NCBI RefSeq assembly: GCF_000299355.1
Contig: NC_018664.1
Span: 1,968,380 to 2,032,379, forward strand
Source of the DNA: Gottschalkia acidurici 9a
GTDB lineage: Bacteria; Bacillota; Clostridia; Tissierellales; Gottschalkiaceae
Length of the DNA stretch: 64,000 bases
Direction of reading: 5' to 3'
Position 1 is the stretch's first letter, and each line of letters opens with the position of its first letter. The position numbers and the translations under genes are program-made. Below the pieces are notes generated by a model. The model saw only the letters and a list, made by a program, of their open reading frames with translations, was not told the DNA's origin and did no database searches. Of this stretch, positions 12,975 to 53,743 are shown piece by piece.

Positions 12975-12975
12975 A

Positions 12976-13802: not shown

Positions 13803-13832
13803 ATATTTATTATATTTAAGTTTTGGACGATT

Positions 13833-14918: not shown

Positions 14919-14984
14919 TATGTTTTTTAAATCATAGCTAATTTGCAAGTTATATTGCATAGTGAAAAAATAGTCATCTATATT

Positions 14985-15026: not shown

Positions 15027-15158
15027 ACAATATATGGGTTCGGAGTAAATAAATCAATTTCTTTTTTACCCACTTTTAATTTTATAATAAGATTTTGGAT
15101 ACAGAAAGTTCGCCTTTTCAGTAACAGCTTTTTTAATATGTCTACCTTAAACTCTAAA

Positions 15159-35634: not shown

Positions 35635-35686
35635 AGAAAAGCACTATTAATATTATTAATTTTAATAATATTAATAGTGCTTTTCT
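35635..35686 (-). terminator. Long perfect hairpin ending the metal-handling cluster
   Basis: A 24-bp uninterrupted stem beginning AGAAAAGCACTATTAATA, with a 4-base loop, lies between the MoeA-like gene and the addB promoter. The minus-strand 3' arm ends in GCTTTTCT. Confidence 0.65.
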
Positions 35687-38379: not shown

Positions 38380-38416
38380 ACCCATCCCCCTTGACACAAT
38401 AAAACCCATATATTAA

Positions 38417-39553
38417 TTAATTAGCTATAGCATTTTGAAGAATTTCTTCTATATCTCCATCTTTTAATTCATAGTGATAAAATTTTTCATAAAATTCTTT
38501 AGTTTCTTGTTCTATGTCATATTTAAATTTATCTGGATATAATAAATTTCCTAGCCATTTAATTCCTAAAATACGACTTACTGAAGGAGGTCTATCTATA
38601 ATGTTGTAAGGAGAGTCTGGTATTTCATAAACTTGATTTTCTTTTACTGCTCTTAAGCTACTCCATTTATTATCAGTCGTAATTGTTTCATAACTACTAG
38701 AAACTTTCCCAGTTTTATTGTTTTTATCTTTACAAACTATTATTTTATCTGGATTCCAATTTAATATCTGCTCTATAGATACTTCTGTTCTACCATATCC
38801 ACCTTTTGATTCAACATCAGCTATATTTTTCGCACCTACAAAATCAAATACTCCTGCGTGAGTTGACTTAGCTGGATCTGTTTGTAAACCTTCTGGTCCT
38901 TGAGCATAGTATATTGTAACTTTTTCTTCCTCCTTTATACTATCAGCAATTTCTTTAGATTCTTTAAGGGTTTTTTCACAATAATCTGCTAATTCTTGTG
39001 CACGTTTTTCTTCGTTTAATACTTCTCCTAGGAATTTATAACTTTCAGGAGTTTTTTCTAACTCTCCATCTGCTATAACTACAGGCTTTCCAATTTGTTT
39101 TTGAAGATCATCTGCAAATTGCTTGCTGGCATCATCAACATCACCCATAGCAATTATTACATCTGGATCAACCTTTAAAATCTCTTCTATATTACCTTTA
39201 TTATCTTTACCAAACCAACCTCCTAAAATAGGTAACTCACTATATCCTTCTACAGTATATTTTTTCTCCATTTCTGTTAGTTCAAATAGTAGTCCTGTAA
39301 GCTTTTTAGAATCTATAGTATATACTGCCATCTGAGCTATAGGACTAGTTGAATACACTTTTTCTACCTTGGATGGAATCTTAACTTCCCTTCCAGACAT
39401 ATCAGTTATGATTCTTTCTTTATCTTCTACTTGGCTTTGCTCTATGCTATTACCCTTACTCGATGTTTCTGTCTTATTACATCCTACTGTTAAACTTAAT
39501 GCTAAAATTAATATTAATAACAGTGATGTCAATCTTTTAAAATTCTTAAACAT
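38417..39553 (-). CDS. Substrate-binding lipoprotein, Fe/cobalamin type (copy 1)
   Basis: A 378-residue protein with a lipoprotein signal peptide (lipobox LTVGC, Cys25). It is followed by a Peripla_BP_2-type fold (ITDMSGREVKIP, VDPDVIIAM, ILNWNPDKIIV). GGAGGGACAAAAA precedes the ATG at 39553, which lies five codons inside the open frame. It closely resembles the lipoprotein at 46914-48047 and more distantly the other two of the cluster. It should deliver a metal complex to the single FecCD permease at 50139-51242. Confidence 0.85.
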   Translation of the reverse strand: MFKNFKRLTSLLLILILALSLTVGCNKTETSSKGNSIEQSQVEDKERIITDMSGREVKIPSKVEKVYSTSPIAQMAVYTIDSKKLTGLLFELTEMEKKYTVEGYSELPILGGWFGKDNKGNIEEILKVDPDVIIAMGDVDDASKQFADDLQKQIGKPVVIADGELEKTPESYKFLGEVLNEEKRAQELADYCEKTLKESKEIADSIKEEEKVTIYYAQGPEGLQTDPAKSTHAGVFDFVGAKNIADVESKGGYGRTEVSIEQILNWNPDKIIVCKDKNNKTGKVSSSYETITTDNKWSSLRAVKENQVYEIPDSPYNIIDRPPSVSRILGIKWLGNLLYPDKFKYDIEQETKEFYEKFYHYELKDGDIEEILQNAIAN

Positions 39554-39631
39554 TTTTTGTCCCTCCAATTTATTTATATTTTTTTAATTAACTCAAATTT
39601 ATTTTCTTTATTTGAGATTCTTAATATATAA

Positions 39632-40831
39632 CTATTTATTGTTCCATATCTTATGGAATCTCTCTTGCAGTTCTTCTCTAAACTTAACAATATCATTATA
39701 TTTTATATAATCCCATCCTAACCATTTATAATTGGCGTTATCAGGCGTATTGTTTTTTATCTTAGGGTTTAAAGATATTGCATTTATACTAGTGCACATT
39801 TTTCCATAATCATTTAATAAACAGTCTATTACAACATCCAGTTTTTTAACTTTATCTTTCTTTACAAGTATAGAAAGTGGACTTATATTAGCTCCATCCT
39901 CAGGCCATATTATTGAAACATCATTTTTTTCACAAGTTTTAGCAAATGTTAATGATGTTATATAGATAGAACCACCTTCACTACTATTAGTTCCTGCTAT
40001 TTTCACCATCTTAGCATTATGATAAATATCCTTCACATTATGTGCAAATTGTTCTATAGCTTTTTCTCCAAATTCTTTATATAAATATAGAATCATACCC
40101 TTAGCTATTATATTTTCTCTACCAGATGCTATTATCTGATCTTTATATATAGGGTCTAGCAGATCCTTCCATGATTTAGGTTTTGGAATATCTCCTAATC
40201 TTTTTTCGTCTACTAGCATAACGTCCACCATGGCGGTATTTAGTGTATAGCTGTCATCTAGGCAATTTATGCTTGAAAATTCTTGATTAGTGCTTTTGAG
40301 TACATTTTCAAATTTACCTGTTTTAATAAACTTATCTATAAATTCTTTATTGTAAAATACATCAAATCCTTTTGACATTATTATATCCGGAAGCTTGTCT
40401 ATATCTTCTTCCATCCATACATCTTCATGCTTAAATGAAGATCCACACCCATCTACAACATAACAGTTTATCTTTTCTCCTGTTTCTTCTTCATGATCTT
40501 TTAATAGTTCAGTTAACCTTTCCTTTAAAAGTAATCTTGTAGGACATGGTGTTTGTACTAAAACGTTTAGCGGTAACCTAGGATCATATAGTTCATAGCC
40601 TGTAGTTTCTATTATGCTATTATGTTCTGATTTCTCATTTAGCATATTTATGAATATATCTACATTTATGCCCTTTACTTTTAAAACTGTTTGTAGCATA
40701 GTATCTTTTCCTAGTGAGTCTATTAGTTTATCTACCGAACTAGCTTTAAAGCCATTTGCTAAAAAAACTTCATAAGCTTCAGTATGTTTTTTTAAGACAT
40801 CCCCAATTTTATCTGTAGGATTTATCTTCAT
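39632..40831 (-). CDS. DUF1858-like domain fused to a cytosolic binding-protein-like domain (paralogue)
   Basis: A 399-residue paralogue of 37174-38379, with the same N-terminal helical domain (TDKIGDVLKKHTEAYEVFLANGF, then GKDTMLQTVLKVKGIN) and a type II binding-protein-like body. It shares PKSWKDLLDPIYKD and KWLGWDYIK with its paralogue. It also has no export signal. GAAGGAGG precedes the ATG. A conserved Cys-Pro near residue 95 (TPCPTRLL) matches CPLRK in the paralogue and could bind metal (speculative). Confidence 0.65.
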   Translation of the reverse strand: MKINPTDKIGDVLKKHTEAYEVFLANGFKASSVDKLIDSLGKDTMLQTVLKVKGINVDIFINMLNEKSEHNSIIETTGYELYDPRLPLNVLVQTPCPTRLLLKERLTELLKDHEEETGEKINCYVVDGCGSSFKHEDVWMEEDIDKLPDIIMSKGFDVFYNKEFIDKFIKTGKFENVLKSTNQEFSSINCLDDSYTLNTAMVDVMLVDEKRLGDIPKPKSWKDLLDPIYKDQIIASGRENIIAKGMILYLYKEFGEKAIEQFAHNVKDIYHNAKMVKIAGTNSSEGGSIYITSLTFAKTCEKNDVSIIWPEDGANISPLSILVKKDKVKKLDVVIDCLLNDYGKMCTSINAISLNPKIKNNTPDNANYKWLGWDYIKYNDIVKFREELQERFHKIWNNK

Positions 40832-40860
40832 AAAATAAACCTCCTTCTATATTTTTGGTC

Positions 40861-41868
40861 TTAAAAATTTACTATATTATCATCTATTATTCCACCTAGT
40901 CTTATATGATTTCTTATGTCCATCATCTTTTTATCTATTTTCTCTAAAGTATCTATATATCTTTTTTCTTCATTAGAGGAATTTATAACTTTATGTATAC
41001 CTCCATTTTTTATAACTATTCTTTTGTCACCTATAAGAGCTAACACTGGGTCATGTGTTGAGATTAGTACTATCTTTTCTTTTTTAACTAATAGTTCTAT
41101 AGCGTTTTTCCTGTCTATACCTGCATTTTCTATTTCATCTATAAGTACTATTGGTGAAAGACTCAGAAGTGCAGTATCTGCAATCATAAGTGCTCTAGAC
41201 TGACCACCGCTTAACTGAGTAAGAGGAGTACTTTTATTGAATTTTTCTCCTGCTAATTCATTTGCACAGTGGACTATTTCTTCTACGATTTCTCCTATAT
41301 TTTCAATCATTCTACTCTCTGCATGAAGCTTTACAAATTCTTCTACAGAAAGATCCATTACAAAGTTCATGTTTTGCGAAAGTTGAGCAACTAATTTATT
41401 CTCTATAGAAAATCTCTTACTTACATCTGGTATTTCTCCATTTAATAGAACTTGTCTATTAGTAGGAGTATCGTTTTGAGCTAGACATTCAATATCTCCA
41501 AGTAGTCTACTTTTTCCTGATCCTGTAGGTCCTACTATAGATACTACGTCACCTACTTTTAACTCTAATACTACGTTTTCATCATTTCCAAATTTGTCTT
41601 GTCCACCAATTATAGTTATAGATTCTATAGTATTATTAGATGATTTTTTTAATTCCTCCATTTTTTCTATGAAAGATATGAAATTTTCAACTAATTGTTC
41701 TCTAGTGAGTCCGTTATCTTCTAGTATTTCATCCTTTATATTTAGTGTTAATTCTTCTAAGGTTAGTTTGCTATCTATATTGTTTATTGATAAAGATATA
41801 AAGAAATCTTCTGCATAAGTATATTTTTTAAATATATCTTCAATTTTAAGTAGTTTTATGCTCTCCAT
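40861..41868 (-). CDS. Soluble ABC ATPase with DUF1858-like N-terminal domain
   Basis: A 335-residue protein. Residues about 1-70 resemble the helical N-domain of the two neighbouring binding-protein-like proteins. The ATPase follows with Walker A GPTGSGKS (113-120), signature LSGGQSRALM (about 222) and Walker B IVLIDEIENAGID. There are no membrane helices, and no second permease is nearby for it. The best ribosome site (AAGGGA) fits the ATG at 41868. Probably a cytosolic ATP-driven machine of the cluster, not an importer subunit (inference). Confidence 0.7.
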   Translation of the reverse strand: MESIKLLKIEDIFKKYTYAEDFFISLSINNIDSKLTLEELTLNIKDEILEDNGLTREQLVENFISFIEKMEELKKSSNNTIESITIIGGQDKFGNDENVVLELKVGDVVSIVGPTGSGKSRLLGDIECLAQNDTPTNRQVLLNGEIPDVSKRFSIENKLVAQLSQNMNFVMDLSVEEFVKLHAESRMIENIGEIVEEIVHCANELAGEKFNKSTPLTQLSGGQSRALMIADTALLSLSPIVLIDEIENAGIDRKNAIELLVKKEKIVLISTHDPVLALIGDKRIVIKNGGIHKVINSSNEEKRYIDTLEKIDKKMMDIRNHIRLGGIIDDNIVNF

Positions 41869-41889
41869 TAAATTCACATCCCTTCTATG

Positions 41890-42576
41890 CTAGATTTTCA
41901 TTTTTCTTATGTTTCCTGTCTGGTATTCGTCTCCTATTCTAGTTTCTCCTACGCAGTATGAGCATAAGGCAGATGGCATAGAAAATCTAAGTCTCTTGTC
42001 TTGAAGACTTTCAAACTCGGATGCTTCTTTTAATTTAACTGCTAAGTCATAAGAACCCTGTCCTGTTATTCCATTTATAAAAATTATAGATGCTTTAGGA
42101 TTAGCTTGTTTAACTCTAAATGCAAATACCTCTCTTTCTGCTTGAGAAACTATATCGCCCTTAGTTATTACTACTATGTCTGCTAGTTTTAGCATAGGTC
42201 CTATTTTCTTAGGGGTATTTACTCCCGATAAATTATCTATAACGCATATTGAAAGTACATCTTTTATGTGAGGTGAACATCTATTGCAAAGTCCTGCACT
42301 CTCACTTATAAGTATATCTAAGTTTTCTTTCAATCCCCACTGAACACAGTCCTCTATATTACTTATATAAAAGTGATCTGGACAGAGATTTCCTGAAAGA
42401 CCCACTTTTACTTTTGCTCCTGTTTTTTCATAAAGCACATCATCATAAGTAGATAAGCTATCGAACTTTATAACTCCTATATTTAATTTTTCTCTCTTTA
42501 AATTTTCTATAGTTTTAATGGCAACTGCCGTTTTACCTGATGATGGAGGTCCTGAAATTGTAACTATTTTCATCAT
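41890..42576 (-). CDS. HypB/UreG-like GTPase, probable metal-insertion factor
   Basis: A 228-residue protein with P-loop GPPSSGKT (9-16), a Cys-rich centre (SAGLCNRCSPH), the base-recognition motif VITKGD and a C-terminal CSYCVGE. This is the SIMIBI G3E type used to load nickel or cobalt-type cofactors. The start follows GAGGAG, which overlaps the end of the methyltransferase gene, so the two are coupled. No hydrogenase or urease gene is in the window, so the client is unknown. Confidence 0.75.
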   Translation of the reverse strand: MMKIVTISGPPSSGKTAVAIKTIENLKREKLNIGVIKFDSLSTYDDVLYEKTGAKVKVGLSGNLCPDHFYISNIEDCVQWGLKENLDILISESAGLCNRCSPHIKDVLSICVIDNLSGVNTPKKIGPMLKLADIVVITKGDIVSQAEREVFAFRVKQANPKASIIFINGITGQGSYDLAVKLKEASEFESLQDKRLRFSMPSALCSYCVGETRIGDEYQTGNIRKMKI

Positions 42577-42578
42577 TA

Positions 42579-43223
42579 TCACTCCTCTTTTGAAATTATA
42601 ATCCAGTATCCACTATCGTCATCTACTATTTCAAACCTATCTATACTTGCACTTTTTAAGATTTTAAGTATATTATTTTTAGTATCATCAGCCTTCTTTT
42701 TTATTTTTCCTTTTTTCCAAGTTTCTGAGTTTCTCTCTAACATTTCTTTATTTATTTGTTCTCTTAATTCTTTACATCCAAATCCTCCACCTATATATGT
42801 TTTTCCACCATTTTTAAGTATTCTATATATTTCTTTAAAAGCTTTAACTTTATCTTCCCAGAACCAAAGAGAACCTCTACTTATAACTAAGTCTACTGAG
42901 TTATCTTCTAGTGATATAGATTCTACATTCCCTCTTACTGCTTCAACTTTACTTTCAAGTCTTTTTTCTTTTATTCTAGCATTGCATATATCTATAGCAT
43001 CTTGCTGTATATCATAAAGATATACTTTCATGTTTGCATCTGTATTTTCAGCTAATGCTATTCCTAAGTGTCCGCCTCCACACCCTAAGTCTATACAAGT
43101 TCCCTCACTAATTTCTGTCTTTTCTATGGCTTGTCTAACTATTATAGGATATGCTTCTCCAAATACATTAGTAGCTATTTCATCAAATTCATATGATTTC
43201 ATTTTCTCTTCTTTACTTTGCAT
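42579..43223 (-). CDS. Class I SAM-dependent methyltransferase (copy 1)
   Basis: A 214-residue protein with motif I IDLGCGGGHLGIAL (about 44-57), an acidic motif II (VYLYD) and post-motif LVISRGSLWFWEDK. It is a paralogue of the methyltransferase at 45412-45969, sharing FDEIATNVFGE and SGYWIIISK. AGGAGGTTAGC precedes the ATG. Presumably it methylates an intermediate made by the radical-SAM enzymes of this cluster (inference). Confidence 0.8.
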   Translation of the reverse strand: MQSKEEKMKSYEFDEIATNVFGEAYPIIVRQAIEKTEISEGTCIDLGCGGGHLGIALAENTDANMKVYLYDIQQDAIDICNARIKEKRLESKVEAVRGNVESISLEDNSVDLVISRGSLWFWEDKVKAFKEIYRILKNGGKTYIGGGFGCKELREQINKEMLERNSETWKKGKIKKKADDTKNNILKILKSASIDRFEIVDDDSGYWIIISKEE

Positions 43224-43316: not shown

Positions 43317-44414
43317 TTAAGGATTTAAGTGCTTTAAGATTTTATCTGTCTCTTCATCACTTAAGTCATAACGATAAAACTCTTTGTAAAAATATTTCAA
43401 CTCTTTTGACATATCTAAGTCTGCAAATTTATCAGGATGTAAAGATTTTGCCATCCACATTAGCATTAGAATTTTTTGTTGTCCAGAGTCCCAGAAAAAT
43501 ACTCCTGTTGGAGAAATGTGTACATTATTATTTTTTACTGCATTAATTTGCTGGTATCTACCATCATTCAACATTTCTTTAATAACATCTTCTGCACTTG
43601 CATTTCCCGAAGAACCAGCATGGTCAACAAAAATATGATCAGGATTCCAGTCTAGTAACTGCTCTACAGAAATTTCATTTTTAGATCCACCATCTATATC
43701 TTTGTGTACGCAGTTTCCTCCTGCAAGTTCAATTAACTCTACCAAGTCAGATTTTTTACCTGCAGTCCATAGTATTTCTTGATTAGAAAAATAAGCTTTA
43801 GGTCTTTCTTCTTCAGGAATTTTAGAAGTAATATCAGTAACCATTTTAACTTTTTCATCAAAATATTTTGCATATTTTTGAGCAATTTTTACTGACTCTC
43901 CACCTAGAATATCCGCATATAAATTTAATACATTTTTCGTATCTTCAAATTTACCTGTAGACGCCATTGGAACAGCAGTCATTCCTGATTGATTTATAGC
44001 TCCTACAGCATCTGGATTTGGAAAATAAAATACTACTTGCGGATCATATTTCAGTAAATCTTCAATGTTTAAATCAGAATGTGCATTTTCAATTCCAACT
44101 ATGTCATTTAGCTTTTTATAAATAACGTTCGACCATGGCCATCCATCTTTATGAAAGTCTCCTGCTGCAACAATCTTATCTTCTGCATTAAGAATATATA
44201 GTTTTTCATAAGAAGGTCCAAATAGTGCTGCAACTCGTTCTACATTAATAGGAACTTCTATTTTAGTGCCATCAAGATTAGTAACTGTTTTAGTCTTAGC
44301 TTCATTAGAAACTGGCTTTTCTTTATCAGATACAATTTTTTCACTACCACATCCACTAAGTGTACTAACAATCATAATTGCCGCTAGAAACATACTCAAA
44401 AATCTTTTCATCAT
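43317..44414 (-). CDS. Substrate-binding lipoprotein, Fe/cobalamin type (copy 2)
   Basis: A 365-residue protein with signal peptide and lipobox LSGC (Cys22) and a Peripla_BP_2 fold (LLKYDPQVVFYFP, LLDWNPDHIFVDHAG). It is less similar to the other three. AAAGGAACG precedes the ATG pair at 44414. It sits between the rSAM gene and the methyltransferase gene, so biosynthesis and uptake genes are interleaved. Confidence 0.82.
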   Translation of the reverse strand: MMKRFLSMFLAAIMIVSTLSGCGSEKIVSDKEKPVSNEAKTKTVTNLDGTKIEVPINVERVAALFGPSYEKLYILNAEDKIVAAGDFHKDGWPWSNVIYKKLNDIVGIENAHSDLNIEDLLKYDPQVVFYFPNPDAVGAINQSGMTAVPMASTGKFEDTKNVLNLYADILGGESVKIAQKYAKYFDEKVKMVTDITSKIPEEERPKAYFSNQEILWTAGKKSDLVELIELAGGNCVHKDIDGGSKNEISVEQLLDWNPDHIFVDHAGSSGNASAEDVIKEMLNDGRYQQINAVKNNNVHISPTGVFFWDSGQQKILMLMWMAKSLHPDKFADLDMSKELKYFYKEFYRYDLSDEETDKILKHLNP

Positions 44415-44473
44415 TTTCGTTCCTTTCATATATATTTTTCTAAGTTTAAATATTTACTTAAGTACAAATGATT

Positions 44474-45298
44474 TTATTTATATTGCCTTGGAAATTCATA
44501 ACTTCCATTTGCTCCTGTTAATAAGCTATATTCACCATAAAATCCAGATTGCATATCCGAAAATATATTTGCTTTCTTCATATAGACATGAGCTTGTGCA
44601 ACTGTCCTTGCCCAATATAAGGGATTTGCTGGGTTATCGCCCATCATGTTTGTAAATGGGTAGGGAGTAAAGGGTAATATTGATAAAGATTCAGGTTCTA
44701 AACCTTTTAATATATTTAATCCTTTAATAACGTCTTTTTCTTCTTCTCCAAATCCAACTAAAAATCCACTCCAAATTTTCAGACCCAGTTCTTTAGAATA
44801 GTATAGAGTGTTTAATCTATCTTGCAGTGTATCTCCACCTGGTCGGAATTTTCTGTAAACTTCTTCATTGGGTGACTCTATACCACATAAGTATCCATCC
44901 ATTCCTGAAGATTTAAGTCTTTTCAAACTTTCTTTATCTATAGCCCCTAATAGTCCAAAGACCTCTAATTCTGTGTTAGTCTTTAATGCCTCAATATAGT
45001 TTGGATAATCTTCTGGTATCTTATATCCCATCCACCCTGATGCTGTGAATACACGATTTATTCCAACACTTTCTAAGAACTGTCCTCTTTCTATTACGGC
45101 CTCTACAGAATTTTTTAGCGAAAATTGCTCGTTTTTTTCTTTTGTATTATCCCACTTACAGTGGTTACAGTGTGGCTTTGTTAAACACTCTCCTGTTATA
45201 ATAGCAGGGCTTGCCTTAATTTTCACTTTGCCAGAGCCTATCCCTTGTGCTTTTGAGAAAAGCTCCTCATCTGATAATTTCATTATGTCATCTATCAT
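44474..45298 (-). CDS. Radical SAM enzyme with CX5CX2C motif, HcgA/BioB-like (copy 1)
   Basis: A 274-residue TIM-barrel radical SAM protein. The cluster-binding cysteines are C38, C44 and C47 (CLTKPHCNHC), giving CX5CX2C, not the usual CX3CX2C. This spacing is known from HcgA of [Fe]-hydrogenase cofactor synthesis. GLLGAID, LCGIESPNEEVY and FLVGFGEEEKD follow the BioB-like pattern. I start it at the ATG at 45298, after GGGAG. It probably performs radical chemistry on a small precursor; the substrate is unknown. Confidence 0.8.
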   Translation of the reverse strand: MIDDIMKLSDEELFSKAQGIGSGKVKIKASPAIITGECLTKPHCNHCKWDNTKEKNEQFSLKNSVEAVIERGQFLESVGINRVFTASGWMGYKIPEDYPNYIEALKTNTELEVFGLLGAIDKESLKRLKSSGMDGYLCGIESPNEEVYRKFRPGGDTLQDRLNTLYYSKELGLKIWSGFLVGFGEEEKDVIKGLNILKGLEPESLSILPFTPYPFTNMMGDNPANPLYWARTVAQAHVYMKKANIFSDMQSGFYGEYSLLTGANGSYEFPRQYK

Positions 45299-45411
45299 AT
45301 TTACTTCTCCCATCAACCTTTTAGTGTTTCAGTTTAATTATTTTTTAGAGATAATGATCCAGTATCCGCTTTCATCTATTATTATTTTGAATACGTTAAC
45401 TTTAGCTTCCT

Positions 45412-45969
45412 CTATAACTTCTTCGATTTCTTTTTTCTTGCTTCTGATTCTTTTTTCTTTTTACCTTTTATCCACCCTTTAGCATTTCTCTTTATCATTT
45501 TATCTTCTATTTTTTCTTCAAGCTGTTTACTTCCATATCCTCCGCCTATATAGGCTTTTCCACCATATCTTAGTACTCTATATATTTCTTTAATAGCCCT
45601 GACTTTGCTTTCCCAAGAATGATAAGATGCTCTACTTACAATCAGATCTATTGTATTATCCTCAATTGGTATAGTGTGAACATCACCAACAATACCTTTT
45701 ACTCTTTCTCCTATTTTTTTATCCTTTATTTTCACTTCAGCTATTTCTTTAGCATCATATGATCTGTCGTACAAGTAAACTTTCATGTCTGTAATTTCTG
45801 ATATTGCTATACCTAAGTGTCCTCCTCCAGATCCTATATCGATACATATACCTTCTCTTATACTAGTTCTTTCCATAGCTTGTCTAGCTATTACCGGATA
45901 AATTTCACTAAAAACATTAGTTGCCATTTCATCAAATTTATATATACTTTTTTCAAATTTATTTTTCAT
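45412..45969 (-). CDS. Class I SAM-dependent methyltransferase (copy 2, C-terminus frameshifted)
   Basis: The open frame gives 185 residues with motif I IDIGSGGGHLGIAI and FDEMATNVFSE shared with its paralogue at 42579. The last residues are a Lys-rich artefact. One extra base in the run of six T at 45431-45436 (plus strand) extends the protein to TAA at 45338-45340 and gives an ending (SGYWIIISK) identical in pattern to the paralogue. The intact gene is therefore 45338-45969. Its ATG overlaps the DUF364 stop by 4 bases. Confidence 0.78.
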   Translation of the reverse strand: MKNKFEKSIYKFDEMATNVFSEIYPVIARQAMERTSIREGICIDIGSGGGHLGIAISEITDMKVYLYDRSYDAKEIAEVKIKDKKIGERVKGIVGDVHTIPIEDNTIDLIVSRASYHSWESKVRAIKEIYRVLRYGGKAYIGGGYGSKQLEEKIEDKMIKRNAKGWIKGKKKKESEARKKKSKKL

Positions 45970-46835
45970 GAAATATCATCACTCTTAATTGCATAAGACT
46001 CCATATATTCATGGATCATCCCTCCACCATAAAAAGGATTTCTAAGATGATTAAATAGTTTCTCTGGCTGGGTGACTCTGCTAGATATTATATAGTTAAT
46101 TCCATTATCAAATAAGTATTCAGGTATTATCTGTCCACTTGGTCCAAACATACCAATAATCTTTGCTTTTTTTGAATTTTCTATTATTTCTCTAAAAGTT
46201 CCATTTATCAGTGTACAACCACTCATTATGACTATGTCTGAGTTTTGAGTAATTTCTTTATCCTCTCTGACTGTATGAAATGTAATATCTTTCGGTGCAT
46301 ATTCTACATCTTTTCCAATAATCAATGTTTGGAGACTACTTTTAGGTCTCATATCTATCACGTGCAGTTCTTTACATTTTCCGTAAAGTTTATTTATGAC
46401 TCCACCATATCCAATAACAGTTACTATATCGTTCTTATCAACAAAACTGAACTCATTTGGATCTACTAGTTGAATTCCTCTTTCTTTTAATTGTTCTTGT
46501 GAACTAATAGCTTGTGATAGAGCATTAAGCATGGCTAGACAATTAGATCTAGCTTGTATTCCACTATATGCTAGTAGATGTTCAATAATTTCAAATAGAT
46601 TTTTACCTATATAACTTTGTATTTTTTCAAGTTCATTATAGTCTACGTAATCACCATAGACTGCATGCTCTCCTGTAAAATTAAATGCAATCCCAACATA
46701 GTTATCGCTTGTATAAGCTATATTCCATTTATTACAAAATGTAAATTTCTCTAATACTCCAGGCTCTTTATTCATCTTTTCGTATATACTTTTTATTTGT
46801 TTATAAGCTAATTTCAAATCTTCGTTTGTTTTCAT
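45966..46835 (-). CDS. DUF364 (PF04016) protein, putative heavy-metal chelation type (copy 1)
   Basis: A 289-residue protein. An enolase-like N-terminal domain precedes a Rossmann-like C-terminal domain (about 140-270; VTVIGYGGVINKLYGKCKEL, VIMSGCTLINGTFREII, MFGPSGQIIPEYLFDNGINYI). A published structure of this family suggested a metal-chelating active site between the two domains. AGGAGTAATATAGAA precedes the ATG. A shorter paralogue begins the cluster at 53331. Confidence 0.8.
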   Translation of the reverse strand: MKTNEDLKLAYKQIKSIYEKMNKEPGVLEKFTFCNKWNIAYTSDNYVGIAFNFTGEHAVYGDYVDYNELEKIQSYIGKNLFEIIEHLLAYSGIQARSNCLAMLNALSQAISSQEQLKERGIQLVDPNEFSFVDKNDIVTVIGYGGVINKLYGKCKELHVIDMRPKSSLQTLIIGKDVEYAPKDITFHTVREDKEITQNSDIVIMSGCTLINGTFREIIENSKKAKIIGMFGPSGQIIPEYLFDNGINYIISSRVTQPEKLFNHLRNPFYGGGMIHEYMESYAIKSDDIS

Positions 46836-46913
46836 TTCTATATTACTCCTATTTGGCTTTATACATTCAAGTATGAATTGTATACTTTTTTTAATCTGAT
46901 GATAGTGTTTAAA

Positions 46914-48047
46914 TTACTTAGATATAGAGTTTTTTAAGATTTCATCTAAGTTCTTATCAATTAATTTATAGTCATAGAATTTTTCGTAAAATTCTTTAGT
47001 TTCCGCTTTTATATCATATTTAAATTCTTCAGGATAAAGTAAGTTATCAAGCCACTTTATACCCATTATCCTATTTACTGACGGTGGCATATCGTACCAG
47101 TTAAAAGGTAAGCAAGGTATCTCATAAACTTGATTTTCTTTTATGGCTTTTATACTACTCCATCTACTATCTTTTAAGAGTTTTTCATACAAGCTTTCTT
47201 CACCCTGATTATCTAAAGATTCTTGTTTATGTAATATTATCTTCTCTGGATTCCAAGCTAATATTTGTTCTGGTGATACTTCTGTTCTATCATAGTTTTC
47301 TTTAGATTTAACATCTGCAGCGTTAATTCCACCCACTAAATCTATTATCTCTGCGTGTATAGATCCTGAAGGATCAGTTGTTAATCCATCTTGGCCTAAA
47401 GCACAATATACTTTAACTCTTTTTTCTTCTGGTATCTTACTTGCTATATCTTTTGTCTCATCTAAAACTTTTTTACAATACTGTGCTAATTCTTCTCCTC
47501 TTTCCTTTTCATTTAGTAGTTCACCTAAGAATTTATAACTTTCTGGTATACTTTGAAGTCTCCCATCTACAAGTATTATTGGTATACCTAACTTCTCTTG
47601 ATTTTCATCAGCTTCTTTTATCAAATTCTCATTTAGATTTCCCATATATATAATGGCATCTGGGTTTACTTTTAGTATCTCTTCCTCATTACCATCCTTC
47701 CCATGCATAAACGTTCCTAATGTTGGTAAATTACTGTATTCTTCTTTCAGATATTTTCTTTCAGATTCCTTTACATCAAAAGTTTTACCTGCCATTTTAT
47801 TTGGATTAATCGTATACATTGCTACGTTGGCTATATAAAATGCTGGATGTGCTTTTTTAATCTCTTTTGGTACTTCCACTTCTCTTCCAGCCATATCTTT
47901 TATTATTCGTGTTTTACTCTCTTGTTGTTCTTGCTTTGGTACATTTTTTGAATCCGTTTCTGTATTTGAACTACATCCTGATATAGATGTTGTAATCAAT
48001 GCTACAGCTAATGATAGTGATACTACTTTTTTACTTTTGTAAAACAT
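46914..48047 (-). CDS. Substrate-binding lipoprotein, Fe/cobalamin type (copy 3)
   Basis: A 377-residue protein with signal peptide and lipobox ISGC (Cys25) and a Peripla_BP_2 fold (IIKDMAGREVEVP, ILAWNPEKIILHK). It is the closest relative of copy 1 (38417-39553). The ATG at 48047 has no good ribosome site; GAGGAG lies 18 bases upstream before another ATG in a different frame. A one-base error in the first codons is therefore possible, and the true start may lie about 15 bases upstream. Confidence 0.82.
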   Translation of the reverse strand: MFYKSKKVVSLSLAVALITTSISGCSSNTETDSKNVPKQEQQESKTRIIKDMAGREVEVPKEIKKAHPAFYIANVAMYTINPNKMAGKTFDVKESERKYLKEEYSNLPTLGTFMHGKDGNEEEILKVNPDAIIYMGNLNENLIKEADENQEKLGIPIILVDGRLQSIPESYKFLGELLNEKERGEELAQYCKKVLDETKDIASKIPEEKRVKVYCALGQDGLTTDPSGSIHAEIIDLVGGINAADVKSKENYDRTEVSPEQILAWNPEKIILHKQESLDNQGEESLYEKLLKDSRWSSIKAIKENQVYEIPCLPFNWYDMPPSVNRIMGIKWLDNLLYPEEFKYDIKAETKEFYEKFYDYKLIDKNLDEILKNSISK

Positions 48048-48194
48048 CTATTTTTCATCATATAATCTCCTCTTCTATAAATTTATAAAGATATTGGCTT
48101 TCTTTAGATTACTTATGCTATACTTTTTTAAGTATATAACCTTATGCATACTATTAAATATATTGATTCTCAAGTTCACTACCTATTTTAAAAC

Positions 48195-49250
48195 CTATTT
48201 CAACTCACTTATTATATCTAATCCTAGACTTTCGTATTGTTGTCTAGTCTTCTCCATTCGATTGGAATACTCCATATCATTTTCATAAATACAGCCTTTA
48301 CTAGCTATATTAGATATAATTTTATAATGTGGGGTTCTATTTATATGAATTCCCAATACCCTATTTCCGCTACCAGCCATAAGTGGAGTTGGATAGTCAT
48401 CTGGTTTCCATCCCGCTGCTGCTTTAATATCTATATTTCTTAATACCAGACGCATTACTGCCATAACTCTAGCTGCTTCCCAAGTTGAGCACTGTGGATG
48501 ATCTTTCATAGGAATAGTTTTAAACGGATAAAATTTACTAATATATACACTTTTTAAATGTTGATATTGTTTAACATGAAATATAAAGTCTACATAGTCC
48601 TTATATTGGGTTTCTTTTGGATCTAAACCCGCCATAAGACCCGTTATTAGTCCAAGTCCTGCTTCTCCTATTTCTTTCGCGAACTTATTTTTTTGTTCAA
48701 AATTATCTCCTCGCTTGACCTTCTTAAACCAATCTTGATTCACTGTTTCAAAAACTGCACCAACTCTTGTAACACCTAATTTTTTTAACTTTTTCAAAGT
48801 TTCTAATGACATAGCTGCACCGCAATTTATTTCTATTTCCATATCGTTATACCCAGAGTCACGTATAGCTTGTACTATTTCAAGTATGTCTTTACCATCA
48901 CTGCCTAATATGGTTCCTCCACTTAAATGGAATTCTTTTATTCCATGTTTTGAAATATATTCAACACCTTTTATTATTTCTTCAGTACTTAAGGGATCCA
49001 GTGTATCGTCTTTTCTCCAGTAAGGACAATAGTCACATAATGGCTTTAGCTGGCACTTTACCACTCTTGCTATTCCTGATGTCCAATGATATATATTACC
49101 TAATTCTTTTTCTCTTACCTTGACAGCTGTGCCAAAAAGTTTCATTGCTTTTTCTTCTATTTCACTTTTTTCTATTAGAAACAAGGCTTCATCTTTAGTT
49201 ATAACTTCTGTTTCAGACTTTTTTAATATTTCCTCGAAATTCATATTCAT
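48195..49250 (-). CDS. Radical SAM enzyme with CX5CX2C motif, HcgA/BioB-like (copy 2)
   Basis: A 351-residue radical SAM protein with C66, C72 and C75 (CQLKPLCDYC): again CX5CX2C. A BioB/ThiH-like helical N-terminus (residues about 5-50, LIEKSEIEEKAMKLFGTAVKVRE) and barrel motifs HLSGGTILGSDG and GLITGLMAGLDPKE are visible. The C-terminal end LMAGSGNRVLGIHINRTPHY is conserved-looking. TAGGAGACAG precedes the ATG. It lies between the ABC ATPase and lipoprotein copy 3. The product is unknown. Confidence 0.82.
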   Translation of the reverse strand: MNMNFEEILKKSETEVITKDEALFLIEKSEIEEKAMKLFGTAVKVREKELGNIYHWTSGIARVVKCQLKPLCDYCPYWRKDDTLDPLSTEEIIKGVEYISKHGIKEFHLSGGTILGSDGKDILEIVQAIRDSGYNDMEIEINCGAAMSLETLKKLKKLGVTRVGAVFETVNQDWFKKVKRGDNFEQKNKFAKEIGEAGLGLITGLMAGLDPKETQYKDYVDFIFHVKQYQHLKSVYISKFYPFKTIPMKDHPQCSTWEAARVMAVMRLVLRNIDIKAAAGWKPDDYPTPLMAGSGNRVLGIHINRTPHYKIISNIASKGCIYENDMEYSNRMEKTRQQYESLGLDIISELK

Positions 49251-49353: not shown

Positions 49354-50148
49354 TTAATCTTTAAGTATTGGTACACATACTTTCAATTTATCGTTATTCC
49401 TCTTATCTAATACTGTATCTATCTGTACGTTTATCTTATATATCTTCTGTAAGAACTCAGATGTAACAACTTCATCTGGTGAGCCTATTCTAAACTCATT
49501 TCCTCTGTTTATAGCTAGTACCTTTGTAGATGCCATAAATGCATGATCTGGAAAGTGTGATGTCATGATTATTCCTATATCTCTTTTAGAAAGTTCTTTT
49601 ATATGTTTCAGAACTCTTACTTGGTTTCCATAATCTAAGTTCGATGTGGGCTCATCCATTATTAATATTTTAGGTTCTTGTGCTAATGCTCTTGCAATTA
49701 ACACTAGTTGTCTCTCCCCACCACTTATTTCTGTGTAAACGTTATCTTCTAAGTATGATATTCCTAATGACTCTATTATTTCTTCTACTATTTCATAATC
49801 GTTCTGAGATGGTGATGAAAATATTCCCAAGTGAGCAGTTCTACCCATAACTACTACTTCTTTTACTTTGTACGGAAATGGAGGAGTATGTGCTTGAGGA
49901 ACATATCCTATTGCTTTTGCGAAATCTTTTCTAGTCCATTTTTTTATATCTTGTCCATCTAATAGTATGCTTCCACCTTGCAACTTTAAAAAACCTAATA
50001 TTGTTTTAAACAACGTAGTCTTTCCCACTCCATTTGGTCCTAATATACAAAGTATATCTCCAGTTCCCATTTCAAAAGATATATCATTCAAAATTGTTTT
50101 TTTAGCATATCCGCAAATTGCATTTTTTATTTCTAGTTTCAACTCCAT
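49354..50148 (-). CDS. ABC transporter ATP-binding protein, FecE/BtuD type
   Basis: A 264-residue ATPase with Walker A GPNGVGKT (37-44), signature EISGGERQLVLIARALA (about 138-154), Walker B ILIMDEPTSNLD and the H-loop TSHFPDHAF. It overlaps the permease gene by 10 bp, so they form the import channel complex. It is the only membrane-type ATPase of the cluster. Confidence 0.9.
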   Translation of the reverse strand: MELKLEIKNAICGYAKKTILNDISFEMGTGDILCILGPNGVGKTTLFKTILGFLKLQGGSILLDGQDIKKWTRKDFAKAIGYVPQAHTPPFPYKVKEVVVMGRTAHLGIFSSPSQNDYEIVEEIIESLGISYLEDNVYTEISGGERQLVLIARALAQEPKILIMDEPTSNLDYGNQVRVLKHIKELSKRDIGIIMTSHFPDHAFMASTKVLAINRGNEFRIGSPDEVVTSEFLQKIYKINVQIDTVLDKRNNDKLKVCVPILKD

Positions 50149-51242
50149 CCCTTCCTTGTATTAAGTAATAAGTATATGAAAAATGGTGCTCCTACTAAAG
50201 AAGTAAGTATACCAAGTGGTATTTCTATAGATGCTACACTTCTTGCTATATTGTCTACCATAAGTAAATATGTACTACCCATAAGTGCAGATGCTGGTAA
50301 CAGTACTTTAAAGTTTGGGCCTACTACCATTCTTGCTAAGTGTGGTACAATTAGTCCAACCCATCCTATCATCCCTGATACAGATACTGCTGATGCTGTT
50401 AGAAGTGTAGAGCATATTATTACTAGAAATCTTAATCTTCTAGTGTCAATACCTAGTGCCTTAGCTTCCTCTTCTCCAAATGATAATGTATTTAAATGCC
50501 ATCTTACTAAAAATATTGGAACAATGCCTAATAGAAATGGGATTAAAATCATAAATGTATCTCTTTGACTGATAGTTGATAAGCTACCCATTAACCAGAA
50601 AGTTATTGCTGGTAATTTTTCATATGGATCAGCTACATACTTTGACAATGAAATAAATGATTGAAATACAGTTCCTACTAGCATACCGGCTAGTATGAAT
50701 ACAAACATTATATTACCGCCTCTACTTACTTTTGTACTTATTGTATATGTTAATAGAACCGCTAAAAGTCCAAAAGTAAACGCCATAAGTTGTATTCCAA
50801 CCGTATTAAATGAAAGTAATATTGCTAATGCAGCTCCGAATCCTGCTCCTGCTGATGTTCCTAATATATCTGGTGAAACCATGGGATTTTTGAACATTCC
50901 TTGATAAACTGCTCCCGATATTGATAATGCACTACCTACTATCATAGCAGTTACAATTCTTGGTATTCTCACTTGAAAAATAACAGTATGAATTACGTTT
51001 GGATAGTTAGAAGAGCTTGGATAATTTATCTCTATACCTGTTAATTTTGTAAACAAGTTTGCAAACAATTCAATTAATTTTAAAAATAATATATTGAATG
51101 CCTGTCCAATTGTTATGGAATACCTTCCTAATGTGATTGATAATAAAAAAGCTACAATCGGTATTAAAATAAGTATTAAAAATTTCAACTTGTATTTAGG
51201 ATTTTTCTTTGAATCACCTTCACTCTTTAATCCTACAGCCAC
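50139..51242 (-). CDS. FecCD-type ABC transporter permease
   Basis: A 367-residue permease with about ten membrane helices and the family core (VGSALSISGAVYQGMFKNPMVSPDILGTSAGAGFGAALAI region, LGIDTRRLRF, GMIGWVGLIVPHLARM). It starts at GTG 51242 after AGGAGGG. Members import siderophores, heme or cobalamin handed over by binding proteins. Four candidate binding lipoproteins lie in the same cluster. Confidence 0.92.
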   Translation of the reverse strand: MAVGLKSEGDSKKNPKYKLKFLILILIPIVAFLLSITLGRYSITIGQAFNILFLKLIELFANLFTKLTGIEINYPSSSNYPNVIHTVIFQVRIPRIVTAMIVGSALSISGAVYQGMFKNPMVSPDILGTSAGAGFGAALAILLSFNTVGIQLMAFTFGLLAVLLTYTISTKVSRGGNIMFVFILAGMLVGTVFQSFISLSKYVADPYEKLPAITFWLMGSLSTISQRDTFMILIPFLLGIVPIFLVRWHLNTLSFGEEEAKALGIDTRRLRFLVIICSTLLTASAVSVSGMIGWVGLIVPHLARMVVGPNFKVLLPASALMGSTYLLMVDNIARSVASIEIPLGILTSLVGAPFFIYLLLNTRKGWS

Positions 51243-51361: not shown

Positions 51362-52447
51362 CTATTTCATATCTCCTAATATATCTTTACATTCTTCATC
51401 AGATAGTTCATATCCAAAGAATTTTTTAGAGAATGTCTTAAGCTCTTCATTAATATCTATATCTTTCATTTCTTCTGGATAAAATAATTTTGCCGCCCAA
51501 AGTACTGTAAGTGGCTGTTCCATAGTTCTGTTAGCCCATACATGTCCCATAACAGGTGTAACGTATACCTTTTTATCCTTTACTGCTTTTAAATCCTTAA
51601 ATCTTTCATCACTATAAGCAAATTCTTTGTCTTTTTCAGTTTGAACTAACAATACATCTGGATTCCAGTTAAATAACTCTTCCATAGAGTAATCAGATGA
51701 CTCAGTTTTTCTATCATCTTTAGATACGCTTACTCCTCCAGCTGCTTCAATCCACCATTCTCCGACTAAGTGTCCTAGTGATAATCTCTCAAGTGTAGTA
51801 TTTAATGCTGTAACTCTTTTTTCTTGAGGTATCTTAGAAACTATATTGTTAACTTTTTCAAGAGTCTCATCAAAATATTTGCTATATTCTTTAGCTCTTT
51901 CTGGCTTATTAAATATTTCTCCTAATAAGTTTACTGCCTCTTTTACGTCTTCTGGATCTTTCCAATCTAGTACTATTGCTTTCATACCTTTATCTTCTAT
52001 ATCTTCAGCTGTCTTTTCATCCATAGTAAATACTAAGTCTGGATTTACTTCTATTAGTTTCTCTATCATTATAGTTCCTTCTCCATCTTCAACTACTGTA
52101 TTGTCTGCAATTTTAGGATTAAAAACTTTATGATATTTCCATCTATCGCCTTTAGCAAATTTAGGTGGTAATCCGTTTGCTATTTTATCACCTTCACCCA
52201 TAGCAAATACAAAGCAGTTAAGTACTCCTACAGGTCCTACTGTTACTACTTTTTCTATGTCTTTAGGTATTTCAACTTTTCTTCCTGCTGAATCTGTTAT
52301 GATCTTTGTCTTAGGCTCATTAGCTTCATTTGATGATTCTTTTGAAGTTTTTGTATCAGGTGCACACCCTGAAATTATAGTAGCTAGCATAGTAACTATT
52401 AAGAATAAGCTTAATAGTACTTTTGATTTGTTCTTTATAAGATTCAT
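51362..52447 (-). CDS. Substrate-binding lipoprotein, Fe/cobalamin type (copy 4)
   Basis: A 361-residue protein with signal peptide and lipobox IISGC (Cys28) and a Peripla_BP_2 fold (IITDSAGRKVEIP, LFNWNPDVLLVQTEK). AGGAGGATTAGAGC precedes the ATG at 52447; the open frame is 14 codons longer. It is adjacent to the permease and ATPase and is probably their main partner. The ligand is unknown. Confidence 0.87.
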   Translation of the reverse strand: MNLIKNKSKVLLSLFLIVTMLATIISGCAPDTKTSKESSNEANEPKTKIITDSAGRKVEIPKDIEKVVTVGPVGVLNCFVFAMGEGDKIANGLPPKFAKGDRWKYHKVFNPKIADNTVVEDGEGTIMIEKLIEVNPDLVFTMDEKTAEDIEDKGMKAIVLDWKDPEDVKEAVNLLGEIFNKPERAKEYSKYFDETLEKVNNIVSKIPQEKRVTALNTTLERLSLGHLVGEWWIEAAGGVSVSKDDRKTESSDYSMEELFNWNPDVLLVQTEKDKEFAYSDERFKDLKAVKDKKVYVTPVMGHVWANRTMEQPLTVLWAAKLFYPEEMKDIDINEELKTFSKKFFGYELSDEECKDILGDMK

Positions 52448-52614
52448 ATGCTCTAATCCTCCTGTAAATGTTTTAAGTATATTTTTCAAAACTTATTTTG
52501 CACTATTATCACTTATAACTATTTTTTCAGCATATTTTCCAAAGAAATGATATCCTGAGCCTGCTTCTCCTATTATGTCTAATAGCCTATCAGGATCAGT
52601 AACTTCAACCCCTC

Positions 52615-53331
52615 CTACATAAGTAACTCCTCTCTTAAAAAAGCTTCTGGCATCATACTTACTGTAGGTCCTACTACAATTATCTTAGCAGTTGGCTTTG
52701 CTAACTCTAATAAACCTTCTAATGTATCATTTATGAGTGTTGTTCCTGTTATAATTACATAGTCTGCAATAGGTATTACTTCATTAGCCCGTTCTGATGG
52801 CACATAGTGATCTAACTCTTTTCCTTTTAATGTTGTAGGATCTAGCTCTAATATAGACATGTCTCTATTATTCTTAATTAGCATTTTTATATATGGTACT
52901 AGCGCACCTACTATAACGGTGTGTGTATTTTCCTCTACTTCTATTTTGTCTATAGGGTCTAGACTACTTTCTATTATATATGTATTGTTTTGTTTTCCCA
53001 TACTCCAACAGGTAGTAGCCAACGCATTTATAACTGCTATTCCTAAAGTTTTCTTTAGTGGACTTCCTGAGAACATATTTTCTAAAAAGTATCTTACATT
53101 TTTGCCAGTCATTTTACCAGAGGTAGGCATGGCATATGCTGAACTTGGACAACATACAGCATCAGAAAGTGCTTTTATAGGAGTATAACTTAGTCCACCT
53201 TTGCCGTTACTCAACTTTACACCTGTAAAGAACAATCCAAAAACTATTCTTTCTACAGTTAAGCTATTTATTTCATCACCTAAAGTTTCGTATAGTTTAT
53301 CAATAGTTTCCGACAATATTTTATTTTTCAT
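52615..53331 (-). CDS. DUF364 (PF04016) protein (copy 2, C-terminus frameshifted)
   Basis: The open frame gives 238 residues with the two-domain DUF364 pattern (VIVGALVPYIKMLIKN, YVIITGTTLINDTLEGLLE, VGPTVSMMPEAF). It breaks after EAF at a run of six A (52637-52642, plus strand). With one more base it continues KRGVTYVGG, then DPDRLLDIIGE and GSGYHFFGK, the usual family ending, to TAA at 52493-52495. GGAGGTG precedes the ATG. It is the first gene after the strong promoter at 53408-53436. Confidence 0.8.
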   Translation of the reverse strand: MKNKILSETIDKLYETLGDEINSLTVERIVFGLFFTGVKLSNGKGGLSYTPIKALSDAVCCPSSAYAMPTSGKMTGKNVRYFLENMFSGSPLKKTLGIAVINALATTCWSMGKQNNTYIIESSLDPIDKIEVEENTHTVIVGALVPYIKMLIKNNRDMSILELDPTTLKGKELDHYVPSERANEVIPIADYVIITGTTLINDTLEGLLELAKPTAKIIVVGPTVSMMPEAFLREELLM

Positions 53332-53407: not shown

Positions 53408-53436
53408 AGTATAACGCTGTCTATAATTGTTGTCAA
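53408..53436 (-). promoter_or_regulatory. Strong promoter heading the 17-gene metal-handling cluster
   Basis: Minus-strand TTGACA (53431-53436) and TATACT (53408-53413) are 17 bases apart. The leader is about 70 bases. I see no riboswitch-like fold or clear Fur box in it. Confidence 0.65.
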
Positions 53437-53504
53437 TAAGCTTTTAGAAGTGTATAGTTTTTTTCAATATTACGAAGTGTGCGGTAGTACCTTATTTATG
53501 TAAT

Positions 53505-53548
53505 AAAAAAAGCTGAAGAATTAGCTATATCCTAACTAACCTTCAGCT
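53505..53548 (-). terminator. Terminator of the spore-protein genes
   Basis: AGCTGAAG and its complement flank a 22-base loop just after the SASP stop; a run of T follows on the minus strand. Confidence 0.7.
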
Positions 53549-53557
53549 TCATTATCG

Positions 53558-53743
53558 TTATTTCCCATTTTTTTCTTCCATTAATTGCTTCTGACCAAGT
53601 TCAACTAGTTCTCTTACAATATATCCTGTATGACTTGAAGTTAATGACCTAGGATCATCTACCCCATACTCTTTAGCAAATTCTATTTTAAATTGTTCTA
53701 AAGCTTCTCTAGCTTCAGGAACAACAAGCTTTCTTTTAGACAT
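53558..53743 (-). CDS. Alpha/beta-type small acid-soluble spore protein
   Basis: A 61-residue protein with the family signatures LVVPEAREALEQFKIEFAKE and GYIVRELVELG. It coats and protects DNA in the dormant spore and is degraded by the GPR protease at germination; the FAKEYGV stretch corresponds to the usual cleavage region. GGAGGATAAC precedes the ATG. It lies just after the coat-protein gene and is probably co-expressed under forespore control. Confidence 0.93.
   Translation of the reverse strand: MSKRKLVVPEAREALEQFKIEFAKEYGVDDPRSLTSSHTGYIVRELVELGQKQLMEEKNGK

Follow-up and report, generated by a model that had tools for sequence, protein, structure and literature searches.

Gottschalkia acidurici 9a, a clostridial bacterium, encodes two radical SAM enzymes with the cysteine spacing CX5CX2C, that of HcgA, within a 64,000-nucleotide stretch of its genome (contig NC_018664.1, positions 1,968,380 to 2,032,379), referred to here as the window. 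To our knowledge, HcgA has so far been known solely from the [Fe]-hydrogenase cofactor pathway, and the locus raises the question of what such enzymes do in this organism.

Two radical SAM proteins with CX5CX2C

Both genes are unbroken reading frames on the minus strand, at the coordinates of the first-pass annotation. P0001, the short type (44474 to 45298; 274 amino acids), lies in an open reading frame spanning 44474 to 45316 with an ATG start at 45298 and contains GECLTKPHCNHC, which gives C38-X5-C44-X2-C47. P0002, the long type (48195 to 49250; 351 amino acids), contains VKCQLKPLCDYC, which gives C66-X5-C72-X2-C75. Both match Pfam Radical_SAM (PF04055) above the gathering score. Of the 52 open reading frames picked in the window, no others contain CX5CX2C, a motif that arose in 5 and 22 of 20,000 trials when the letters of these two proteins were shuffled. 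The spacing first annotated was thus confirmed by the reading frames, and it is invariant in full-length relatives: it is kept in 21 of 21 P0002-type sequences and in both full-length P0001-type orthologs, a third ortholog that ends at a contig edge being left out of the count. The P0001 orthologs (53 to 58% identity) are found in Desulfosporosinus-class islands (L089, L091, and L083).

The AlphaFold2 model of P0002 (pLDDT, 91.6) is nearest in fold to HydE, BioB, and PylB, with Foldseek TM scores, normalized by query length, of 0.73 to 0.82 for the closest entries. The PF04055 match and the barrel fold indicate membership of the radical SAM superfamily, the predicted structure of P0001 being too poor (pLDDT, 61.9) for use.

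Relationship to HcgA, BioB, HydE, and PylB

The HcgA model (TIGR03957) was the top model for both proteins among 18,950 NCBIfam models, with 137.9 bits for P0002 and 89.3 bits for P0001, far below the curated cut-off of 320.9. A search of 398 Firmicutes genomes with this model gave a best match of 221 bits. Among the loci read, CX5CX2C was present in 7 of 7 scoring at least approximately 122 bits and CX3CX2C in 13 of 13 at 112 bits or less, 5 of the latter being assigned by model to BioB, HydE, or PylB, which bears out the earlier description of the spacing as rare. The BioB model gave 71 and 74 bits for the window proteins, against a cut-off of 225, and a genuine bioB (405 bits) is located elsewhere in the genome. 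In addition, both proteins lack the cut-off scores, the CX3CX2C spacing, and the clade position of HydE and PylB.

Firm placement in BioB or HydE, which the first-pass annotation had named as evidence against its view, was not observed for P0002: its clade (support, 100/95) excludes BioB, HydE, and PylB and has CX5CX2C members exclusively. P0001 forms its own, weakly placed branch (85/62); the HcgA model is only moderately ahead of BioB for this protein, and BioB is marginally ahead in one ortholog. The tree contains no authentic HcgA sequences, and the model score serves as the proxy for relationship to HcgA. P0002 had no match in a plasmid search, in which its relative from genome G419 gave BioB/HydE-like matches only, or in a single-sequence search of genome contigs; a three-row alignment found three organisms in the contigs, and a seven-row alignment was too diverse.

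The sequence comparisons support classification of P0001 and P0002 as HcgA-like enzymes. The proposed HcgA-type identity stands in the top model of both and the separate clade of P0002, but is tempered by scores far under the cut-off and by the weak placement of P0001. Like HcgA/HmdB, the FeGP enzyme that forms 6-carboxymethyl-5-methyl-4-hydroxy-2-pyridinol, the window proteins have CX5CX2C, a BioB/HydE-like barrel, and methyltransferases encoded nearby; unlike it, they occur in a bacterial metal-chelate transport and molybdenum context. BioB, HydE, and PylB share the fold and recognizable sequence similarity but differ in cysteine spacing (13 of 13 checked), clade, and gene context.

Absence of Hmd and HcgB

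The first-pass annotation found neither hmd nor hcgB in the window, and this holds across the whole genome. Hmd had no match genome-wide, and HcgB had none in this genome and 15 relatives (16 genomes), whereas both controls were positive in Methanocaldococcus jannaschii. The co-occurrence with hmd and hcgB that characterizes HcgA is therefore lacking, and the enzymes probably serve something other than the FeGP pathway.

Gene content of the window operon

P0001 and P0002 belong to an operon of 17 genes on the minus strand (53436 to 35637), preceded by a candidate promoter, TTGACA-17-TATACT (53408 to 53436), that is a consensus match only. The first gene encodes a DUF4213/DUF364 protein (52615 to 53331; 73% in L022 and 51 to 53% in the islands of relatives). 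By homology, it is followed by SBP51 (51362 to 52489), a FepB-like metal-chelate-binding lipoprotein with a lipobox in its sequence, a FecCD/BtuC-type ABC permease (50139 to 51242), and a FecE/BtuD-type ABC ATPase (49354 to 50148). Two further FepB-like lipoproteins, also assigned by homology, are encoded directly 3' of the radical SAM genes: SBP46 (46914 to 48047) after P0002, with a similar pairing in Syntrophomonas wolfei and in G455 and G456, and SBP43 (43317 to 44429) after P0001, with a 59% ortholog in L089 that adjoins the P0001 ortholog. Between SBP46 and P0001 lie a second DUF4213/DUF364 protein (45966 to 46835; 49% in islands) and a class I SAM-dependent methyltransferase (45412 to 45969; 185 amino acids).

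The distal part encodes a second such methyltransferase (42579 to 43223; 214 amino acids; 37 to 46% homologs in islands), a HypB/UreG/CobW-like GTPase (41890 to 42582; 51% in the S. wolfei island and 80% in L022), and a soluble ABC-type ATPase without a permease of its own (40861 to 41877; 45 to 46% in S. wolfei islands), the N-terminal extension of which appears DUF1858-like by eye. The fourth FepB-like lipoprotein by homology, SBP38 (38417 to 39568), lies between two DUF1858 and SBP_bac_6 fusions in which no signal peptide was seen (39632 to 40831, presumably cytosolic, and 37174 to 38409). The last gene encodes a divergent MoeA paralog, molybdenum insertase-like, with Pfam MoeA_N and MoCF domains (35870 to 37087), and is followed by a terminator-like site with a 20-bp stem (35637 to 35684; both strands scored).

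Together with the class III binding lipoproteins, the permease and ATPase constitute a FecBCD-type metal-chelate importer, comparable to MolABC. Relatives of SBP51 include HI_1472 and Ni-binding and Fe-chelate-binding proteins, and the PDB homologs of the binding proteins span Fe, Ni, heme, and HI_1472, so that the metal is not fixed by them. Unlike MolABC/FecBCD-type systems, the window operon adds four receptors, radical SAM enzymes, methyltransferases, DUF364 proteins, and a MoeA paralog. No exporter was recognized in the operon. A nitrogenase-like reductase partner within the window was considered and rejected; the additional NifDK-like pair of this genome, which has a separate FecBCD, maps to 396 to 399 kb, approximately 1.6 Mb away.

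Scores of the MoeA paralog against the MoeA equivalog models (189 versus 440 and 257 versus 534 bits) set it apart from canonical MoeA, and it is 41% to MoeA proteins encoded beside ModABCD/XdhC (L109) and beside ModABC (L110). Divergent MoeA paralogs (66 to 90 bits) are nearly confined to genomes with HcgA-like genes, and one adjoins an HcgA-like gene in this genome and in G403, G466, and G486. A hand estimate of this proximity (6 of 14 islands; P of ~3e-6 at an assumed rate of 3.3%) uses approximate counts and is supportive only. A neighborhood of transport and Mo/W genes was already noted for DUF364 genes with the structure of Dhaf4260 (PMC2954201), a family with two members in the window operon; a radical SAM partner is not mentioned there.

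Moco riboswitches and Mo/W genes near relatives

Relatives of the window operon are found in Syntrophomonas, Desulfosporosinus, Desulfitobacterium, and Sporobacter. The riboswitch-controlled islands described below hold homologs of window genes: in S. wolfei, those of P0002 (63%), SBP38 (46%), and the soluble ATPase (45%), in addition to the GTPase, and in L089, those of P0001 (53%) and SBP43. Among the loci fetched, 19 of 26 HcgA-like genes have a FepB-like receptor gene as a direct neighbor, and in G455 and G456 a two-gene unit of receptor and radical SAM enzyme lies behind a Moco riboswitch.

For 16 of 24 HcgA-like genes, representing 13 of 18 islands, a Moco riboswitch (RF01055) is present on the same strand no more than 10 kb upstream, an association with a chance probability of ~4e-24 by island, given the riboswitch density of each genome. 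It lies directly upstream of a P0002-type gene in Sporobacter (L046, 9740 to 9881; gene at 9959) and approximately 110 nt before a P0001-type gene in G461 (L091, 3982 to 4113; gene start at 3867). RF01055 RNAs that contain the P3 stem are of the Moco type, and those without it are of the tungsten-cofactor type (Regulski et al. 2008, PMC2408646). P3 was present in all five island riboswitches inspected: S. wolfei L114, L121 and L123 (G456 and G455), L122 (G461), and Sporobacter L046:9740. At 141 nt, the copy in the S. wolfei island is longer than 12 of the 13 others in that genome, which measure 117 to 124 nt, and the three of those others that were inspected lack P3. The five islands without RF01055 include the window operon, with no match even at an E value of 5, and the G002 operon; the two riboswitches elsewhere in the Gottschalkia genome both lack P3. 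The island riboswitches share their class with published regulons, but HcgA-like, DUF364, and nitrogenase-like genes are not among the targets (moa, mod, and molybdoenzyme genes) named in the part of Regulski et al. (PMC2408646) drawn on here.

Molybdenum and tungsten genes are also found around the relatives. ModD and two ModABC sets lie at the island end in L082, L106, L107, and L108, WtpA is encoded in L092, a signal-less ModA in L085, FmdE in L087 and L107, and an XdhC-type AOR maturation factor in L083. Formate dehydrogenase, AOR, and two MoeA proteins are encoded beside the P0001 ortholog in L091. The most HcgA-like member of the subfamily (G419) instead adjoins nickel-pincer lar genes and CbiMQO, including genes that we take, by eye, to encode LarB and LarE. 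Replacement of larB by the HcgA-like enzyme in G419 was rejected, as the 305-amino-acid neighbor is, by eye, LarB with a run of N.

Probable molybdenum acquisition and alternative roles

The riboswitches and adjoining molybdate transporters of the relatives suggest an undescribed organic-ligand route for acquiring or handling molybdenum, and a literature search found no description of such an HcgA-like/DUF364/Mo system. The window operon probably acquires molybdenum, possibly also tungsten, as an organic-ligand complex, with the HcgA-like enzymes building or reworking the ligand. That this operon serves molybdenum is suggested by analogy with its relatives, and action of the radical SAM enzymes on the ligand is likewise inferred. 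The different purpose foreseen in the first-pass annotation is most likely molybdenum acquisition, for which a pyridinol-like or other ring ligand would be a possible product. The lipoprotein receptors and FecCD/FecE importer would bring the Mo-ligand complex into the cell, although the order of steps is tentative. Two HcgA-like enzymes, two methyltransferases, and two DUF364 proteins may make or remodel the ligand in the cytosol, and the HypB-like GTPase, soluble ABC ATPase, DUF1858-SBP fusions, and dedicated MoeA paralog may hand the metal to cofactor synthesis.

Several observations run against molybdenum acquisition. The window and G002 operons lack RF01055, the riboswitches of this genome lack P3, the HypB-like GTPase is by homology a nickel-type accessory protein, the G419 gene lies near lar/CbiMQO rather than Mo genes, and a secreted metallophore would need an exporter, none of which was recognized in the window operon.

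The lack of a recognized exporter fits a catabolic version of the same proposal, which overlaps with it: the importer would take up complexes of molybdenum (or another metal) made by other organisms, the ligand then being broken or altered by the methyltransferases and radical SAM enzymes to free the metal. Anaerobic heme-degrading radical SAM enzymes break a ligand to release metal. Four distinct receptors per single permease and the receptor-radical SAM units of G455 and G456 agree with such scavenging. Nevertheless, unlinked genes could serve export, and HcgA, the nearest characterized family, builds rather than destroys its ligand (PMC10100467); scavenging is considered somewhat unlikely.

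Acquisition of nickel, cobalt, or iron, with the Mo genes as coincidental neighbors, would suit the HypB/UreG-like GTPase, the G419 context, and the usual cargo of FecCD-type importers (Fe chelates or cobalamin). It appears improbable against the riboswitch statistics, the P3-type aptamers, the ModD-ModABC genes ending four islands, and the dedicated MoeA paralogs. Divergence from BioB, HydE, or PylB with drifted cysteine spacing might explain why those models also match, the HydE/BioB kind of fold, and the weak placement of P0001; it is very improbable, and largely refuted for P0002, given the separate clade with exclusively CX5CX2C members and the genuine bioB elsewhere. Least credible is HcgA-fashion pyridinol synthesis for an unrecognized Hmd-like enzyme or other FeGP-type iron cofactor, for which the shared top model and CX5CX2C speak but against which stand the absence of Hmd and HcgB, the low scores, and the Mo/W context.

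Returning to molybdenum acquisition, a more detailed scheme for anaerobic Firmicutes can be drawn, although it is unlikely to hold in full. A pyridinol-type Mo ligand would be made by HcgA-like enzymes and methyltransferases, induced through the Moco riboswitch at low cofactor, taken up by FecCD, and unloaded by the dedicated MoeA, with a nitrogenase-like reductase in some species.

If molybdenum acquisition is correct, HcgA-like chemistry under Moco-riboswitch control would also serve the supply of molybdenum, as its second known role, and the orphan families of DUF364 proteins, DUF1858-SBP fusions, HypB-like GTPases, MoeA paralogs, and nitrogenase-like proteins would be joined in one system. 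S. wolfei is a cultured organism in which this idea is directly testable. Such a system would bear on the supply of scarce molybdenum to anaerobes of sulfidic settings.

HcgA-like radical SAM enzymes

The open reading frames of the short radical SAM enzyme (P0001; 274 amino acids, 44474 to 45298) and the long one (P0002; 351 amino acids, 48195 to 49250) are intact on the minus strand, and both match Pfam Radical_SAM. The best reading of the P0001 start is the ATG at 45298, which yields C38/C44/C47, and the cluster cysteines of P0002 are C66/C72/C75, as read in the first-pass annotation. The CX5CX2C spacing is also as rare as that annotation held: among 52 picked window ORFs, these 2 alone contain it, and shuffled versions of the pair rarely do. 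In an HcgA-model search of 398 Firmicutes genomes, CX5CX2C was found at all seven loci read that scored ~122 bits or more, and CX3CX2C at all 13 loci read that scored ≤112 bits, five of which are assigned by model to BioB, HydE, or PylB.

Assignment to the HcgA type holds in part. HcgA/HmdB is the top NCBIfam model for P0002 (4e-40, 138 bits, versus 71 for BioB, 64 for PylB, and 58 for HydE) and for P0001 (2.5e-25, 89 bits, versus 74 for BioB), but the HcgA model cutoff is 320.9 bits, and therefore neither protein is HcgA by the NCBIfam standard. For one P0001 ortholog, the BioB model is marginally ahead. In a 39-row tree built without authentic HcgA sequences, P0002-type proteins form a single clade (support, 100/95) apart from BioB, HydE, and PylB, whereas the P0001 type, which forms a long-branched clade with good support of its own, is placed only weakly on the P0002 side (85/62). 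Because authentic HcgA was absent from this comparison, the evidence for kinship of both enzymes with HcgA consists of model scores and the motif. The AlphaFold2 model of P0002 is a confident barrel (pLDDT, 91.6) with a predicted fold nearest to HydE, BioB, and PylB; that of P0001 is poor.

In methanogens, HcgA makes the pyridinol precursor, from a substrate that the cited study (PMC10100467) gives as unknown. The lack of Hmd and HcgB noted for the window extends to the genome: whole-genome searches, in which archaeal controls were detected, found no Hmd in the 98%-complete genome and no HcgB in it or in 15 relatives.

Operon organization

Both genes lie in a run of 17 minus-strand genes (53331 down to 35870), which we infer to form one transcript, between a promoter-like site (53436 to 53408) and a strong terminator-like stem (35684 to 35637). 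The order is DUF364a, SBP51, FecCD, FecE, P0002, SBP46, DUF364b, methyltransferase, P0001, SBP43, methyltransferase, HypB-like GTPase, ABC ATPase, DUF1858-SBP, SBP38, DUF1858-SBP, and divergent MoeA, where the numbered SBPs are FepB-like lipoproteins. By eye, all four of these carry lipoprotein signals, and none were seen on the radical SAM or DUF1858-SBP proteins. A tie of DUF364 to metal and Mo/W transport genes has been noted before (PMC2954201).

At 37174 to 41877, the two DUF1858 plus SBP_bac_6 proteins lack signal peptides and the ABC ATPase has a DUF1858-like N terminus (by eye); these are possibly cytosolic metal-binding partners with a common docking domain. A short gene resembling those for small acid-soluble spore proteins, with a terminator-like hairpin (53500 to 53740), lies between the operon and the next gene upstream. 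Elsewhere, the window encodes a 1,029-amino-acid repetitive protein with surface-protein-like repeats (2680 to 5769) and a selenocysteine tRNA (58650 to 58746, minus strand); given this tRNA, the host probably makes selenoproteins. A separate NifH-like, FecBCD, and NifD/K-like cluster without an HcgA-like gene lies elsewhere in the same genome, outside the window (L053, C2:386000-405999, at 6886 to 12912).

Conserved neighborhood in relatives

P0002-type genes occur in 7 of 398 Firmicutes genomes (including that of the window), in 10 of 83 genomes of the class of G403, and, among named records, in Syntrophomonas wolfei, a Desulfosporosinus MAG, and Sporobacter termitidis. FecCD/FecE, FepB-like receptors, DUF364, methyltransferases, HypB-like GTPase, and MoeA recur around them, and 19 of 26 HcgA-like genes have a receptor gene next to them. 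The window operon has many components in common with these islands, with identities of 63% (P0002) and 51% (HypB-like) with S. wolfei, 53% (P0001) and 59% (SBP43) with island L089, and 41% for MoeA with L109 and L110. Nitrogenase-like D/K genes are present in islands L019, L046, L081, L089, L092, and L094.

The most HcgA-like Firmicutes enzyme (G419, L020:76-10851; 221 bits, CX5CX2C) is encoded beside LarC and proteins resembling LarE and LarB, along with a CbiMQO transporter and an importer of the Opp type, which suggests a nickel-linked branch of the family. Also recurring in islands is a ~600-amino-acid fusion of a radical SAM domain, similar in appearance to pyruvate-formate-lyase activase, with a FepB-like binding domain (L015:10756-12534, L083:3009, L088:8512, and L091:978). 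In the S. wolfei island (L014:18294-19762), a SPASM-like radical SAM protein adjoins a 138-amino-acid protein whose C-terminal part contains cysteine, resembling a peptide-maturation pair.

Link to molybdenum

Most islands contain a Moco riboswitch (Rfam). Counted over whole genomes, a riboswitch lies no more than 10 kb upstream, in the same orientation, of 16 of 24 HcgA-like genes; the corresponding island count is 13 of 18, far beyond chance (~4e-24 from the genomes' own riboswitch densities, which is not an exact probability, as the genomes are related and not independent). All five inspected aptamers preceding HcgA-like genes possess the P3 stem, linked to Moco rather than tungsten cofactor by Regulski et al. 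(PMC2408646), who also describe Moco RNAs as abundant in S. wolfei and D. hafniense. The riboswitch at the S. wolfei island is 141 nt, versus 117 to 124 nt for 12 of the 13 other copies, and P3 is absent from all three of those inspected.

Four islands end with ModD and two ModABC sets, and others of the islands' Mo/W genes encode WtpA, a signal-less ModA, FmdE, and an XdhC-type AOR maturation factor. One P0001 ortholog is adjoined by formate dehydrogenase, AOR, and two MoeA genes. Divergent MoeA paralogs, including that of the window, form a low-scoring group (66 to 90 bits to MoeA_N) that occurs almost exclusively in genomes also carrying HcgA-like genes, among them G403, G466, G486, and the window's genome; several members adjoin FecCD, ModABC, or XdhC genes. 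In Sporobacter termitidis (L046:11818-11966 and 12120-15243), a P3-type Moco riboswitch lies upstream of genes for one NifH-like and two nitrogenase-component-1-like proteins, with MoeA-like, FecCD, and FecE genes next in line, and this nitrogenase-like system is apparently under Moco control.

A search found no Moco riboswitch at the window operon, and both copies elsewhere in its genome lack P3; the molybdenum assignment of this operon is therefore made by homology to the islands of relatives, which is its chief weak point. A literature search excluding preprints, most subscription journals, and supplements found no paper on HcgA-like enzymes in molybdenum metabolism.

Proposed function

The data are compatible with either building or dismantling of a ligand. 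The lack of a recognized exporter slightly favors processing of an imported compound. A pyridinol product is possible by analogy with that of HcgA and with ModD, a quinolinate-phosphoribosyltransferase homolog. Molybdenum shortage would switch on the operons of relatives, and the receptors and FecCD importer would bring in a molybdenum complex. The HcgA-like enzymes and methyltransferases would build or rework its organic ligand, and the GTPase, ATPase, and MoeA paralog may then hand on the metal.
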